Notes under the pieces: model-generated | Seen by the model: only the letters and a program-made list of their open reading frames with translations | Databases searched by the model: none | What the model was told of the DNA's origin: nothing | Shown: piece after piece, positions 3,314 through 18,496 of the stretch | Layout of the letters: each line of letters begins with the position of its first letter | How positions within the stretch are numbered: position 1 is the stretch's first letter | Virus record (IMG/VR): IMGVR_UViG_3300023110_001514 | Coordinates: 1 to 25,854 of that record | From: a virus | DNA: 25,854 bases | Direction: 5' to 3' (one strand) | Position numbers and translations under genes: made by a program

Positions 3314-4914
3314 TAACTGGTTATCTGGGCAATACCAATCTCAAAAAGATTGGTGAGCAGATAGAATTTACACCCGAGAATCTAAAAGAATATATGAGGT
3401 GTATGAACGACCCTGTATATTTTTGTAAATATATCAAAATTGTTCATGTTGATAAGGGGCTAGTCCCCTTTGACCTATATGATTATCAGGAAGAAATCGT
3501 CAATAAAATTACTGACCATAGAAGATTGGCAGTCCTCACTGCGCGTCAGTCAGGTAAGACAACTACAGCAGTCGCAGTGATTCTTCATTATATCCTTTTT
3601 AATGAATATAAAACAGTAGCCATTCTCGCAAATAAAGGTGATTCTGCCAGAGAAGTATTGAGCCGTGTGCAATTGGCATATGAAGCATTGCCCAAATGGA
3701 TGCAACAAGGCGTTGAAGAATGGAATAAAGGTAGTATCTCATTAGAAAATGGCTGTAAGATATACGCAGGAACGACTTCATCAAGTGCCATTAGAGGTAA
3801 ATCTATTTCATTCCTTTACCTTGATGAGGTCGCGTTTATCGAAGGCTACGATGATTTCTTCGCATCGGTCTATCCTACAATTTCATCTGGTGAGTCAACA
3901 AAGCTGATGATGACCTCTACTCCCAATGGTCTGAACCATTTTTGGAAAACCTGTAAGGGTGCTGAAGAGGGTACAAACGGTTATGAATTTACCAAGGTAA
4001 TGTGGGATGATGTTCCAGGTCGTGATGAAAAATGGAGACAAGAAACCCTCGAAGCCTTAGATTTTGACGAACAAAAATTTAGACAAGAGTATTGCTGTGA
4101 ATTTCTTGGTAGTTCTGGTACCCTGATTGATGGTTCAAAACTAAAAAATCTGGCATACTCTAGACCTATTGCAGAAAATGAAGGCCTTTACCAGTATATT
4201 AAAGCCGAAGAAGGCCACACTTATGTAATGACTGTGGATGTATCAAGAGGTAAAGGTCTTGATTATTCTACATTTAATATTATTGATATCACTGAAATGC
4301 CCTACCAACAGGTTTGTACTTACAGGGATAATCTGATCGGGCCTGTTGATTTTGCCTCAGTTATATATAGGGTAGGCTTACTCTATAATGAAGCTGCATT
4401 ACTTATAGAAATCAACGACATTGGTGAGCAAGTTTCTGATGTTCTTACTATGGATTATGGGTATGAGAATTTCTTGTATACAGAGAACGCAGGAAGAACA
4501 GGAAAGAGAATATCAAGTGGTTTTGGGAAGAAAGTTGATAATGGTGTGAGAACAACAAAAAGTGTGAAATCAATTGGCTGTACGATCTTAAAGATGTTGA
4601 TCGAACAAGACCAATTGCTTTTACGAGATTTTAACACAATACAGGAATTGTCCCGATTTTCGAAAAAAGGATCCTCATATGAAGCCGAATCCGGCGCTCA
4701 TGATGATTTGGTTATGAATTTGGTTTTATTCGCATGGCTATCAGATCAGAACTACTTCAAAGAGATGACTGATATAAACACCCTTATGAAATTAAGGGAA
4801 AGAACGGAAGAGCAAATTGAACAAGATCTTTTACCCTTTGGTTTTATTGACGATGGAAGTGATGATGAGATGTCCGTGTGGCAAGATGCCCGGGAAGGTT
4901 GGCAAATCCTGTAA
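3310..4914 (+). CDS. gp17: Large terminase subunit gp17 (packaging ATPase-nuclease)
   Basis: This 534-residue protein has both terminase domains. The N-terminal ATPase has a Walker A at ARQSGKT (residues 78-84) and a Walker B FLYLDE (168-173) with the catalytic Glu 173, followed by a coupling motif in TSTPNG. The C-terminal RNase H-like nuclease has its acidic residues at D310 (TVDVS), probably E367 (LIEIND) and D465/D466 (GAHDD). T4 gp17 is 610 residues, so this is a compact but intact form. It pumps DNA into the prohead through gp20 and cuts concatemers at headful. The start overlaps the end of gp16 (ATGA). The gene is followed by a 78-base gap carrying the gp18 late promoter. Confidence 0.98.
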   Translation: MITGYLGNTNLKKIGEQIEFTPENLKEYMRCMNDPVYFCKYIKIVHVDKGLVPFDLYDYQEEIVNKITDHRRLAVLTARQSGKTTTAVAVILHYILFNEYKTVAILANKGDSAREVLSRVQLAYEALPKWMQQGVEEWNKGSISLENGCKIYAGTTSSSAIRGKSISFLYLDEVAFIEGYDDFFASVYPTISSGESTKLMMTSTPNGLNHFWKTCKGAEEGTNGYEFTKVMWDDVPGRDEKWRQETLEALDFDEQKFRQEYCCEFLGSSGTLIDGSKLKNLAYSRPIAENEGLYQYIKAEEGHTYVMTVDVSRGKGLDYSTFNIIDITEMPYQQVCTYRDNLIGPVDFASVIYRVGLLYNEAALLIEINDIGEQVSDVLTMDYGYENFLYTENAGRTGKRISSGFGKKVDNGVRTTKSVKSIGCTILKMLIEQDQLLLRDFNTIQELSRFSKKGSSYEAESGAHDDLVMNLVLFAWLSDQNYFKEMTDINTLMKLRERTEEQIEQDLLPFGFIDDGSDDEMSVWQDAREGWQIL

Positions 4915-13898: not shown

Positions 13899-14006
13899 AT
13901 GAGCTGTATTTGAGTAAAGTGTCATATCATTGAAACTCAATCTTAACACAAACTTCATAAAACTTTTGTTCCTCAATGATTAAATAAAGATATGAAAACA
14001 AAGAAC

Positions 14007-14038
14007 CCCCGGCCGCTAACGCGACGGGGATTTTTTTT
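14007..14038 (+). terminator. Second terminator-like hairpin in the leader of the TonB receptor gene
   Basis: CCCCG (14007-14011) pairs with CGGGG (14025-14029), and an inner CGC/GCG pair closes a TAAC loop. ATTTTTTTT follows directly. The run ends only 22 bases before the receptor ATG. It may be a back-up terminator for gp23 or an attenuator in the receptor leader. It is GC-rich, unlike the surrounding A/T-rich spacer. Confidence 0.65.
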
Positions 14039-14060: not shown

Positions 14061-16850
14061 ATGAAATTGAAACAACTTTTTGCAATGACCTTGGTACTAA
14101 TACCATTACTAGGTCTAGCAGAAGAAATCCACTATGATAGAAATCAACTCCCACAGCTAAACATTGCCATACTAGAACAAAGTGAATTTGCAGATCGTAT
14201 TGAGGTTACAACTGTACCTGTTGCAGAATTGAAGCCAGTACAGACTCAACGTGTAAAGGATCTGGTAAAACACGAAAAAAGATTAATCAAGGTTCAACAA
14301 GATACCTATAGACCGCTAGTAATCGATCATGATTACTACATTATTGATGGCCACCATCGGTATGATGCACTTACCGAGATGGGTGTAGAAAAGGCCAGAG
14401 TTGTTATAGTACACGCAAATATTGCTGATGTGGTAGAAGCGTTTCCTCAATACCGAGATGATACACCTACATACGAACCCATGGAAGAAGTTCGAGTAGT
14501 AGGCTCTCGAGCAAATCTAATCAATGCCGTCGATAAGCAAATGATGGCAGATAACATTATCTCAGTTGTCGATTCAGATGCACTAGGTAATTTCCCCGAT
14601 GCAACTGCAGCAGATGCTGTTCGGCGACTCTCTGGTATCAATGTAGAGAATGATCAAGGTGAAGGTCGGTATATTACCATTCGTGGTTTATCCTCTGACC
14701 TGAATGCAGTTTCTGTAAATGGTGCTTCTATGGTTGCACCAGAGAATGGCCGATCTGTTATCATGGATGGAATTCCAACTGAATTGCTTGACAGCATCAC
14801 AGTGGCAAAATCTTTGGTACCCGAAATGGATTCTGATAGTATTGGTGGCCGTGTAGAATTCAATACAAAGAGAGCAACCGAACTTGAAGATCGTTTATTC
14901 AATGTAAAGCTTGCTACCAAATGGAGCGAGAAGGATGATAAGAAGATGCCTAATGCATCTGTCATCTATGGTGATTATATTACCGATAATCTTGCACACA
15001 TTGTAGGTCTCACTTATTCTTCTCGCAGAATCATCTCGCATAATAATGAGACTGGTTTTGGTTGGGAAGATGGTTTAATGAATGACGATTATGAAATGCG
15101 TTGGTATGATGTTGAGCGCGAGCGATATGGATTTAGTTATGATATTGCTTACGATGCAGGAACAACTTTATACTATGCAAACATTCTTCATAACCAATAC
15201 GATGAGACAGAAACACGTTTTAAAAATGAATATGGTAAGATTAAGAACACCGGAGTAGTCTTTGATAATGCTGTAGAATCTTCTCGTGTTCGGCATGACG
15301 TGGAGACAAAACAACGGTATGAAACTAGAACAATCAGTGCAGCCTCTCTTGGATTCGAGCATTTGGGTGCCGTTACGATTGATGGTCAACTGTCTTTCTC
15401 CAGAGCAGAAGAGGATGATTCTGATAACGCCGATGTTACCTTCCGTAATTACGACAAAGATTTCGGTGCTCTTTTCGATTGGAGCAATCCACGACTCCCC
15501 ACAGTCACTCCATATGATCTCACTCTAAGAGATCCAGCTAATCTTGAATTTGATGCGTTCGAAACATGGTCGAATGTGAGTCAAGATGAAGAGGTTGCCG
15601 CACAGTTGAATTTCGAATTCGATACAGGCATTGGCATGATCAAGACTGGTGTGAAATATCGAGGTCGAGAAAAGGTCGTCGATGACTACATCATCGGCTA
15701 CACTTGGGATCGTACCCTTGCAGATTTCGAATCAGAATCCCCTGATTGGATTTGGGATCAAACATTTGGTTCTCACCTTTCTGGATCTGATACATATGCA
15801 CTACTTGATTCCGTCGGGCAAATGGAAGTCGATTTTGAAGATGATTTGAGCAGAGATTTTTCTACCAAAGAAAATATCATGGCTGCATATATTCAAGACA
15901 CGATTGACTTAGAAAATGCTGTTATCATTTTCGGTGTTCGGTACGAAGCCACTGATTTCAAATCTATTGCATATGATCAGAATGGTGATCTCGTATATGC
16001 AGAAAATGATTACGATTTTGTTGCTCCAAACCTGACGGTTAAGTATTTTTTAAATGATAATATTCAGGTTCGTGGCGCATTGTGGCGTGGACTCTCTAGA
16101 CCTGGTTTCAAAGAGACTGCTCCAAAAACATCTGTTGATGTAGACACCTCTGGTGATACTACTGGATCAGTTGGTAACCCAGATCTCTTACCATATGAAG
16201 CAGATAACTTTGATCTGTCTATCGAATATTATGGTGAAGGGATGACCTTTGCATCGATTGGTTTCTTCTATAAGAATATTGCTAATGCCATCTACCCAAC
16301 ATATCAACTGAATGGTACATTTAATGGCATTATATTCAACGATGGAGTAGAGACATGGATTAATGCTGATGATTCTACTGTAAGAGGTCTCGAGGTCAAC
16401 CTACAGTACGGCTGGGAGAATGGACTCTACGTTGCTCTAAATGGTACGCTCACTGACAGTGAATCCGTGTTCTCGTTCGATAATGATCAGACATTCTCTA
16501 CCCCTTTCCGTAAATTAGCTGACAAGGCTGCAAACTTGAGTTTGGGCTATGAGACAGATAAGATCGATATTCGACTTGCTGGGACATATAGAGATGAATA
16601 TCTTGATTGGCTTGCAGATGAAGATGGAGATATCACGAGTGTGAGTGATAATAACTCCAGATTTGTTGCACCTCATATGCAGATCGACTTGACTGCAAAA
16701 TATATCGTGAATGAATCAATGACGCTTCGATTTGAAGCAATTAACATCAATGATCGCGATGAGTATTACTACTGGGGTAATGAGAATCAACTCTCTCAGT
16801 TCGATAACTACGGTGTATCATATGTCGTGGGGATTGACTTCAGACTCTAA
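14061..16850 (+). CDS. TonB-dependent outer-membrane receptor with an N-terminal ParB/Srx-like domain
   Basis: This 929-residue protein has, in order: a signal peptide (MKLKQLFAMTLVLIPLLGLA, about 1-20); a ParB/Srx-like domain (about 30-125) with VTTVPVAELKPVQ, RPLVID and the signature IIDGHHRYDAL containing D96-G97-H98-H99-R100; a TonB box (EEVRVVGSR, 142-150); a plug domain (about 160-270) with DAVRRLSGINVENDQGEGR, YITIRGL and SDSIGGRVEFNT; and a beta barrel to the end (YVVGIDFRL). The plug and barrel have normal receptor length and resemble the Caulobacter/Alteromonas-type TonB receptors. Such receptors import siderophores, haem, glycans or vitamins with energy from TonB; the substrate is unknown. 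The start at 14061 is chosen because a signal peptide follows and AAGAGG precedes; an ATG at 13992 would place a terminator hairpin inside the gene. It is convergent with the metallopeptidase gene, overlapping by four bases. No frameshift or truncation is seen. Confidence 0.95.
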   Translation: MKLKQLFAMTLVLIPLLGLAEEIHYDRNQLPQLNIAILEQSEFADRIEVTTVPVAELKPVQTQRVKDLVKHEKRLIKVQQDTYRPLVIDHDYYIIDGHHRYDALTEMGVEKARVVIVHANIADVVEAFPQYRDDTPTYEPMEEVRVVGSRANLINAVDKQMMADNIISVVDSDALGNFPDATAADAVRRLSGINVENDQGEGRYITIRGLSSDLNAVSVNGASMVAPENGRSVIMDGIPTELLDSITVAKSLVPEMDSDSIGGRVEFNTKRATELEDRLFNVKLATKWSEKDDKKMPNASVIYGDYITDNLAHIVGLTYSSRRIISHNNETGFGWEDGLMNDDYEMRWYDVERERYGFSYDIAYDAGTTLYYANILHNQYDETETRFKNEYGKIKNTGVVFDNAVESSRVRHDVETKQRYETRTISAASLGFEHLGAVTIDGQLSFSRAEEDDSDNADVTFRNYDKDFGALFDWSNPRLPTVTPYDLTLRDPANLEFDAFETWSNVSQDEEVAAQLNFEFDTGIGMIKTGVKYRGREKVVDDYIIGYTWDRTLADFESESPDWIWDQTFGSHLSGSDTYALLDSVGQMEVDFEDDLSRDFSTKENIMAAYIQDTIDLENAVIIFGVRYEATDFKSIAYDQNGDLVYAENDYDFVAPNLTVKYFLNDNIQVRGALWRGLSRPGFKETAPKTSVDVDTSGDTTGSVGNPDLLPYEADNFDLSIEYYGEGMTFASIGFFYKNIANAIYPTYQLNGTFNGIIFNDGVETWINADDSTVRGLEVNLQYGWENGLYVALNGTLTDSESVFSFDNDQTFSTPFRKLADKAANLSLGYETDKIDIRLAGTYRDEYLDWLADEDGDITSVSDNNSRFVAPHMQIDLTAKYIVNESMTLRFEAININDRDEYYYWGNENQLSQFDNYGVSYVVGIDFRL

Positions 16851-18496
16851 AAAAGACAAATGTCGGCTGGGGCATTTGTCCAGATGCTCCAGACCGGCTC
16901 ATCTTCCACATCAATATTACGAGAGAATTGAATTTGATGTTCTTTCTCACTTAATTGACTCATCAGCCATCTTGCTCTTAGGAGAGAATCTACTGAATCC
17001 GTGGGTGGTGGCTGATTTTCTATTTCGTCTAAGCAGAAGCAACCACCATTAGTTCCAATGGAAACACTCTGTCCTGTTTCTGGTATTTCACAGGTAACAC
17101 TTCTATCTGAAAATCTGCCTGTTGCTAAGTCAGCATATGACATAATCGTACCGTAACCACCGTATATACCTTCATATTCTGGATTATCGGCCTGAGCATT
17201 ATAACCTGGTATATTGTATCCATAAGAATATTCAAACAAGCCTGGTTCATTTGCATCTTCCCATTCGTGCTGTAAGCCTAATAAATGACCCGCCTCATGT
17301 ATGAATGTCTCATGAGCCCTTTCATAATATCTAGTATTTGCTGCCTCTTGAAACGTGCTATTGTGGAAGCATTGAGTGATACCTCTACTCTTATCTATCC
17401 CTCTCGTAGCGTCCAAGTGAGCGACCCCACAAGCGACAGGGTCATTGTGTTTCTTCTTGAATAAAAACGCTAGGTCAGCATTAGCTTCACGTTGCCATCT
17501 ATCAATGTTCTGAAATTCATATTTACCATTGAAAAATGCCCGATATTGCCTATACAGGTCACCTTCAGCAACATCAACCATTACTATATCTGCTACTCGT
17601 AAAAGAACATATGTACCGCTTACCATAAACATATGATTTGCCTCGTAGAATTGCTTATCTACAAATTCTTCTACAGTCATACCATCACGTTCTTCTTCAG
17701 TCATATTCGTATCAAACACTACCAACATATCAATAATCGCGCGACCCGCGTGCTCTTCTACTGGCTGATATGGATACGATACATCGGTTTTTTGTTTAAT
17801 ACCATCACAGGTCATATAATCATAGCGACCGTCACCAGTATCAGTTCGAACTGTCGGGCAGTCTGTTGGTTTTTCCATTTGAACAAAACAAGATGGATCG
17901 AGGTGTACAGTACGTTCTGTATATGTGCCACCTTCTCCGTCTGCATAGTCTTGCAGTCTATCTTCTGGTAATAGATGATTGATGTTTTGCCAGTGGGGAT
18001 CGTATTCTTCTGGTGTCAATGATCCAGCACAATATGAGTCACCTAGTAGTGTACCTTCTTCGGGCGGTGGTTCCCAGCCACAATCTGCTGAATCAGTCTC
18101 TACCACCTCTGTATAAGAACCACCTTCGCCGTCAGCAAAATCCTGTACCTTATCAAAATCACCAAGATTTTGTATCGTATTGAGTAGGTCTAAAAATTGT
18201 TGTTCTGTACTGTTTGCACAGTAGGGATCGGAGAGGGGTGTACCAAACAGTGGTGGTTTTTCATACCCACAAGCTTCAGAATTTGGAGTTTCTTCAGTTG
18301 TTGATCCACCATTACCATCAGCAATGACTTGAATAAGAGTAGTACCGTCACACGATTCTTCTAAAACGGTTCCAGCATCGGGGTATGAGGGCGCGGGTGT
18401 TACAACAATTGGTTCGGTGGGTTCAGGTTCATTTGTACTGCCTCCACCACAAGCAGTAAGAAGGAAAATCAGTAGACTCAGGGTAATTTGTTTCAT
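16847..18496 (-). CDS. Zinc metallopeptidase lipoprotein (metzincin-like) with three Cys/ADGxGG repeats
   Basis: This is a 549-residue secreted lipoprotein. The lipobox LTAC places the lipidated Cys at 16; the +2 residue is Gly, which predicts outer-membrane sorting. Three repeats follow (about 41-77, 85-140, 148-203), each with a GTxL start, a Cys, an ADG(N/E)GG core (59-64, 121-126, 185-190) and a closing Cys, probably disulfide-bonded. The C-terminal domain has the zinc site HEAGHLLGLQH (H400, E401, H404, H410) and a Met-turn TIMSY (M452). This combination defines metzincins (astacin/reprolysin/snapalysin group). It probably cuts proteins at or outside the outer membrane; the target is unknown. 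GAGGT precedes the start, and a terminator overlaps the last codons. An AATAAATA lies upstream, so late expression is possible. Confidence 0.9.
   Translation of the reverse strand: MKQITLSLLIFLLTACGGGSTNEPEPTEPIVVTPAPSYPDAGTVLEESCDGTTLIQVIADGNGGSTTEETPNSEACGYEKPPLFGTPLSDPYCANSTEQQFLDLLNTIQNLGDFDKVQDFADGEGGSYTEVVETDSADCGWEPPPEEGTLLGDSYCAGSLTPEEYDPHWQNINHLLPEDRLQDYADGEGGTYTERTVHLDPSCFVQMEKPTDCPTVRTDTGDGRYDYMTCDGIKQKTDVSYPYQPVEEHAGRAIIDMLVVFDTNMTEEERDGMTVEEFVDKQFYEANHMFMVSGTYVLLRVADIVMVDVAEGDLYRQYRAFFNGKYEFQNIDRWQREANADLAFLFKKKHNDPVACGVAHLDATRGIDKSRGITQCFHNSTFQEAANTRYYERAHETFIHEAGHLLGLQHEWEDANEPGLFEYSYGYNIPGYNAQADNPEYEGIYGGYGTIMSYADLATGRFSDRSVTCEIPETGQSVSIGTNGGCFCLDEIENQPPPTDSVDSLLRARWLMSQLSEKEHQIQFSRNIDVEDEPVWSIWTNAPADICLF
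16849..16880 (-). terminator. Intrinsic terminator overlapping the end of the metallopeptidase gene
   Basis: Read on the minus strand, GACAAATG and CATTTGTC form an eight-base stem around a ten-base GC-rich loop, followed by six T. The hairpin is inside the last codons and the T run overlaps the final Phe and stop codons. On the plus strand no T run follows the stem, so it does not serve as a terminator for the receptor gene. Confidence 0.8.

Follow-up and report, generated by a model that had tools for sequence, protein, structure and literature searches.

A TonB-dependent receptor gene of a T4-like phage encodes, between its signal peptide and its TonB box, a domain predicted to have the ParB/sulfiredoxin (Srx) fold. 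We estimate a probability of about 0.5 that this gene specifies a PhoB-inducible phage organophosphate importer, in which the GHHR loop of the periplasmic ParB-fold domain acts on the phosphorylated ligand. In the current study, we computed the receptor architecture, the predicted fold of the domain, its recurrence among phages, purifying selection, swapping and loss of the domain, the phosphatase-linked ancestry of the receptor, and the 11-nt repeats; the ligand, the control by PhoB and the phosphoryl-binding role of the domain are what we infer. The link to phosphorus, i.e., the receptor clade together with the PhoB-box-like promoter, had been missed in the earlier note on this DNA.

The receptor gene and its neighbours

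The window, i.e., the whole stretch of DNA that was analysed (25,854 nucleotides), contains an open reading frame at 14,061-16,850, immediately 3' of the major capsid gene (phrog_138, E = 7e-163) of a T4-like phage. It encodes a signal peptide, a ParB/Srx-fold domain of about 110 amino acids, a TonB box, a plug and a barrel. The features of the locus, with the basis of each assignment, are as follows.

13,919-13,969, plus strand: five PhoB-box-like 7-mers in tandem, with a spacing of 11 nt (half-site score, self-repeat test, spacing control)
14,006-14,038, plus strand: terminator-like hairpin and T8, 3' of the PhoB-like repeats and 5' of the start codon (sequence)
14,061-14,120, plus strand: signal peptide, MKLKQLFAMTLVLIPLLGLA (sequence)
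14,127-14,465, plus strand: periplasmic ParB/sulfiredoxin-fold domain (Pfam ParBc_2, PHROGs, AlphaFold2 and Foldseek)
14,346-14,360, plus strand: DGHHR, the Box II or P motif (GxxR), phosphate-binding loop of the fold (homologue alignment, PMC12704722)
14,484-14,510, plus strand: TonB box EEVRVVGSR (sequence), also the switch point of recombination between L006 and L009
14,544-14,849, plus strand: Plug domain (Pfam PF07715)
15,420-16,850, plus strand: beta-barrel of a TonB-dependent receptor, TIGR01782 family (Pfam PF00593, NCBIfam 443 bits)

The protein is a TonB-dependent receptor by its TonB box and its TIGR01782 score (443 bits; cut-off 310), and its Plug and beta-barrel matches exceed the curated Pfam cut-offs. 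An RBS-like stretch, AGAGGAAA, lies immediately 5' of the start at 14,061. An alternative start at 13,992 is unlikely because it is placed just ahead of the terminator-like hairpin, the RBS-like stretch being found at 14,061 instead. All relatives keep a leader on the receptor, with differing letters. The placement of the domain in the periplasm as a receptor extension, as had been suggested earlier, is supported. The N-terminus of the window protein has no match to Pfam STN or CarboxypepD_reg, and a misread domain of either type is ruled out by Pfam and by the predicted fold. The full-length AlphaFold2 model (pLDDT 57.5) is too poor for reading the contact between the domain and the plug.

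It should be noted that the receptor gene is convergent with a gene for a reprolysin-like metzincin lipoprotein (16,847-18,496, minus strand), and that in contig L006 a partial gene resembling it also adjoins the receptor.

Identity of the N-terminal domain

The motifs LKPVQ (14,229-14,243), RPLVID (14,310-14,327) and IIDGHHRYDAL (from 14,340) lie between the signal peptide and the TonB box. The earlier note had read them as ParB/Srx-like, and their position, Pfam and PHROGs bear this out. ParBc_2 (PF08857) scores 25.6 bits against a cut-off of 23.6 for the isolated domain, and 21.7 bits, under the cut-off, within the whole reading frame; several PHROGs families of ParB match as well (phrog_620, E = 2e-7). 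Structure prediction, proposed earlier as a check, returned a ParB/Srx fold and not an unrelated one: with 45 homologues, AlphaFold2 gave a pLDDT of 90.4 and a pTM of 0.83. Foldseek comparison of this model with the PDB gave ParB-N, Noc, sulfiredoxin, SerK and SbnI as top matches (E down to 1e-5), and the named viral structure matches are mostly ParB/sulfiredoxin proteins. Across the 45 homologues, the D, the G and both H of DGHHR are invariant and the R is kept in more than 90%; every receptor version retains the GxxR loop. By its predicted fold and its GxxR Box II motif, the domain is thus a member of the ParB/sulfiredoxin superfamily.

The features of partition ParB proteins (ParA-binding motif, helix-turn-helix and dimerisation domains) are absent, the TonB box and plug coming next instead, and the TIGR00180 score of the window protein is 14.6 bits against a cut-off of 58.45. 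Sulfiredoxin chemistry is ruled out, since GHHR has no catalytic Cys before HR and the domain contains no cysteine at all. The family score for SerK serine kinase lies far under its cut-off (21.1 versus 380 bits); the profile match between the domain and SerK is weak (E = 0.002), and the position of the catalytic Glu30 of SerK is apparently Gln, in an ambiguous alignment. Of the traits described for DdrB-like ParB (an active-site Arg, a lineage-specific Asp/Asn and a Tyr helix), the Arg is present.

Relatives, recurrence and exchange of the domain

The closest free-standing relative is a leaderless phage ORF of 107 amino acids from marine phages (L024-L028; 38% identity). The domain had been suggested to be born by fusion with a small secreted ParB-like phage protein: a phage origin is partly supported by these stand-alone ORFs, but they have no signal peptide and thus lend no support to a secreted fusion partner. 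More distant homologues in other phages are fused to P-loop kinase, cytidylyltransferase-like, GNAT and class II RNR-like proteins, and have in common an N-terminal R..MPQ element, LKP.Q and DGHHR. In L059 and L065, the same ParB-like domain is N-terminal in a class II ribonucleotide reductase-like protein. In Spirobacillus, two neighbouring ParBc_2 genes (L102/L103) have lipoprotein-like leaders; judging from these leaders, exported ParBc_2 proteins occur in bacteria.

Apart from the window, about ten viral contigs encode the same two-domain receptor, some of them being near-identical (the set comprises L003, L006, L007, L009, L011, L012, L018, L019, L020, L021, L098 and G001, the last being a relative of 169,742 bases). 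The receptor gene follows gp23 in the window, L006, L009 and L011, and occupies other sites in L020, L098 and, for a receptor that has no such domain, L097; across the genomes, sites away from gp23 are near baseplate, gp32/gp47-like and polymerase genes. Such a shifting position is as expected for a movable cassette. In the 169-kb relative, the domain of the receptor is the sole ParB-like domain found. Locus L111 of that relative (3600-3920, minus strand) encodes a small exported protein that has a c-type-haem motif, CSACH.

Where dS was measurable, both the domain and the receptor are under purifying selection (domain dN/dS about 0.07-0.28). The receptors of L006 and L009 are 97.1% identical and their domains 63.6%, with nucleotide identity jumping at the TonB box, and the L009 domain is 79% identical to that of L011; the domain was therefore swapped in one piece. 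L097 and L143, within the phage clade, have no ParB-fold domain, which reflects either two losses or repeated gains; thus, the receptor can exist domain-free.

These observations bear on a simpler explanation, according to which the ParB-like domain is a mobile cassette from T4-like phages that settled in the extension position and is tolerated there as a spacer, without a task related to any particular ligand. The domain is promiscuous, being fused to kinases, nucleotidyltransferase-like proteins, GNAT proteins and an RNR, and it is swapped by recombination and missing from L097 and L143. However, the motif residues are invariant even though the domains of the receptor copies are only 54-72% identical, and dN/dS is well below 1. 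We regard this explanation as possible, though unlikely.

Phosphatase-linked ancestry of the receptor

Among bacterial relatives scoring at least 182 bits, a phytase, phosphatase or phosphoesterase gene is beside or close to the receptor gene in 10 of the 10 inspected, one gene away in the case of Polymorphobacter; among those at or below 171 bits, a phosphatase-type neighbour was seen in 0 of 6, the 182/171-bit split having been picked after the data were seen. In trees, the phage receptor clade is nested in the phosphatase-linked group (100/100); its sister is the prophage-flank receptor L145 (100/100), the gene of which is followed by that of a PF02333 phytase. In a second T4-like phage lineage (L147/L148), the receptor has no ParB domain and clusters with a Sphingomonas receptor linked to a phytase; at 7133-10439 of L147, the receptor gene is directly 3' of a calcineurin-like phosphoesterase gene. 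A search of the 169-kb relative for phosphatase, phytase and TonB homologues gave nothing significant. Judged by these sequence relationships, the receptor is probably a phage importer of organophosphates, with a phytate-like compound as the presumed ligand.

This ancestry also bears on another explanation, in which the domain is an NTP-binding or nuclease module that would scavenge phosphorus from nucleic acids in the periplasm, or cut the DNA of superinfecting phages. ParB/Srx domains bind CTP, ATP or GTP (PMC12704722), several are reported as nucleases (PMC5512222), and the Pfam label of the family is putative ParB-like nuclease. Against this, no defence-family match was obtained, the receptor clade is tied to phytases and phosphatases, and the sequence permits no assignment of catalytic nuclease residues. 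A module of this kind is decidedly unlikely, and a nuclease role of the domain is not supported.

The Novosphingobium relative has an STN domain in the same position and is beside sigma-factor and FecR genes, which would suit a signalling extension reporting receptor occupancy to an inner-membrane partner, STN-like. No sigma/FecR-like gene was noticed near the phage receptors, in neighbourhoods that were viewed rather than searched systematically, and the fold of the domain is unlike that of STN. We consider such signalling very unlikely, and the earlier idea of a signalling module coupled to the receptor found no support, as no sigma/anti-sigma partner was seen.

Where the phages have the ParB-fold domain, the bacterial relatives carry CarboxypepD_reg, STN or nothing. 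No bacterial receptor with this domain as an extension was encountered: the profile of the domain matched none of 16 bacterial relatives (bacterial chromosomes being lightly sampled), and in a tblastn search of a plasmid/chromid collection, nearly all bacterial matches begin at the TonB box. One narrow pattern scan of bacterial chromosomes gave one weak match, and the phylum of G002 (58 genomes) a single weak one as well, in a frame of 154 amino acids. The pairing of the ParB fold with a TonB receptor only in phages is provisional, because the chromosome search consisted of that one scan and that one small phylum. Searches of the literature yielded nothing relevant on a ParB-like TonB extension or on a link between phage TonB receptors and phytase.

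Upstream region and predicted PhoB control

The repeats at 13,919-13,969 read GTGTCAT ATCA TTGAAAC TCAA TCTTAAC ACAA ACTTCAT AAAA CTTTTGT. Scored with the complete 18-bp PhoB matrix of E. coli, only L021 was clear, and the window and L006 were moderate; therefore, we used half-site and spacing tests. In the window, self-repetition at 11 nt has p = 0.007, and spacings of 9, 10, 12 and 13 are not significant. For three half-sites at eight loci, only 11 nt is significant among spacings of 8 to 14 (Fisher p about 1e-4, an optimistic value because the loci are related). In the 169-kb relative, the receptor ranks first of 116 upstream regions by the three-half-site score. Matrix-free 11-nt periodicity was detected in the window, L009, L020, L097 and L143 (p 0.003-0.01), with L011 borderline (0.05). 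With the E. coli half-site matrix, L009, L098 and L097 do not reach significance; of these, L009 and L097 still have the 11-nt repeat. Given 7-mers at the 11-nt spacing of a PhoB box, the gene is predicted to belong to the host Pho regulon.

The domainless homologue of L143 (2241-9758) has a clear PhoB box (TTGTAACAATCTTGTAAC) and TATAAT, and is followed by CsgG/curli-like genes. Terminator-like hairpins are also present in L003, L006, L009 and L011, the last three with different sequences; a hairpin kept despite sequence change may be an attenuator. No Rfam leader was found upstream of the receptor.

The highly improbable idea that the phage receptor is a decoy altering adsorption of the phage itself or of its rivals draws on the adjoining capsid gene and on the pelagiphage Skadi, whose TonB-receptor gene was read as adsorption-linked (PMC10504331), but the mobile locus and the PhoB-like repeats suit nutrient import better.

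Proposed mechanism

In the importer that we propose, the receptor would be made in phosphate-starved infections because host PhoB would activate the phage gene; a precedent for a PhoB-controlled phage phosphorus gene is cyanophage pstS, which is under host PhoBR (PMC10976474). Once in the outer membrane of the host, the receptor would take up phosphorylated organic compounds that serve phage production. The ParB-fold domain may derive from a mobile domain of T4-like phages, taken up where the bacterial relatives have CarboxypepD_reg or STN. Its DGHHR loop may bind phosphoryl groups of the incoming ligand in the periplasm, and perhaps dephosphorylate them or pass them on; in this fold, nucleotide binding depends on the Arg of GxxR (PMC12704722). 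A stronger version, in which the domain of this PhoB-controlled importer is an enzyme that removes or transfers the phosphate of the ligand (e.g., of inositol phosphates), is clearly unlikely.

Several observations count against the proposal: the 169-kb relative has no detected phosphatase or phytase homologue, the receptors of L097 and L143 are domain-free, and the E. coli half-site matrix is null in L009, L098 and L097. The terminator-like hairpin, which separates the repeats from the gene, counts against it as well. The known ligands of the ParB/Srx fold are ATP and CTP, which one would not expect in the periplasm, and this also speaks against the proposal.

The ParB/Srx fold is known from the cytoplasm, where it acts as a nucleotide switch; here it is periplasmic, on an outer-membrane receptor, so that its ligand in a compartment poor in nucleotides can be tested directly. 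The domainless L097 and L143 and the domain-swapped pair L006/L009 are natural controls for experiments. If true, a phosphate-removing domain would be an extracytoplasmic, nucleotide-independent activity for this fold.

Comparison with known systems

The main texts of PMC12704722 and PMC5512222 make no mention of TonB, and that of PMC12704722, a 2025 survey of the fold, makes none of the periplasm or signal peptides. The phage ParB-CTPase-fold fusions (PMC12704722) and DdrB-like ParB (PMC5512222) have the same fold, a Box I-like helix/loop and GxxR Box II; the phage domain of PMC12704722 is fused to many partners, as here, but those partners are cytoplasmic or injected. SerK, SbnI and ParBc_2 have the DGHHR loop and the fold in common with our domain, which is far under the SerK cut-off.

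Pairs of TonB-dependent transporters and phytases have been noted previously (PMC3400609). The phytase/phosphatase-linked receptors of marine Gammaproteobacteria (Catenovulum, Pseudoalteromonas, Acinetobacter) resemble that of the phage, with plug and barrel 31-34% identical and in the same clade; however, they carry CarboxypepD_reg, STN or no extension, whereas the phage receptors carry the ParB/Srx domain, with no phytase gene found. Phage receptor genes are also represented by the SusC of Mar_Mega_1 (PMC9723777) and by Skadi (PMC10504331), a ParB domain going unmentioned in the available text of these papers, and by L147/L148, which have TonB receptors but no ParB domain. A functional parallel is cyanophage pstS (PMC10976474), likewise a phage envelope gene for phosphorus uptake under a host starvation regulator; pstS is a periplasmic phosphate-binding protein, whereas the protein described here is an outer-membrane TonB receptor for which PhoB control is predicted. 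Our findings suggest that phages of heterotrophic bacteria gained outer-membrane receptors for organic phosphorus at least twice, in parallel to pstS of cyanophages.
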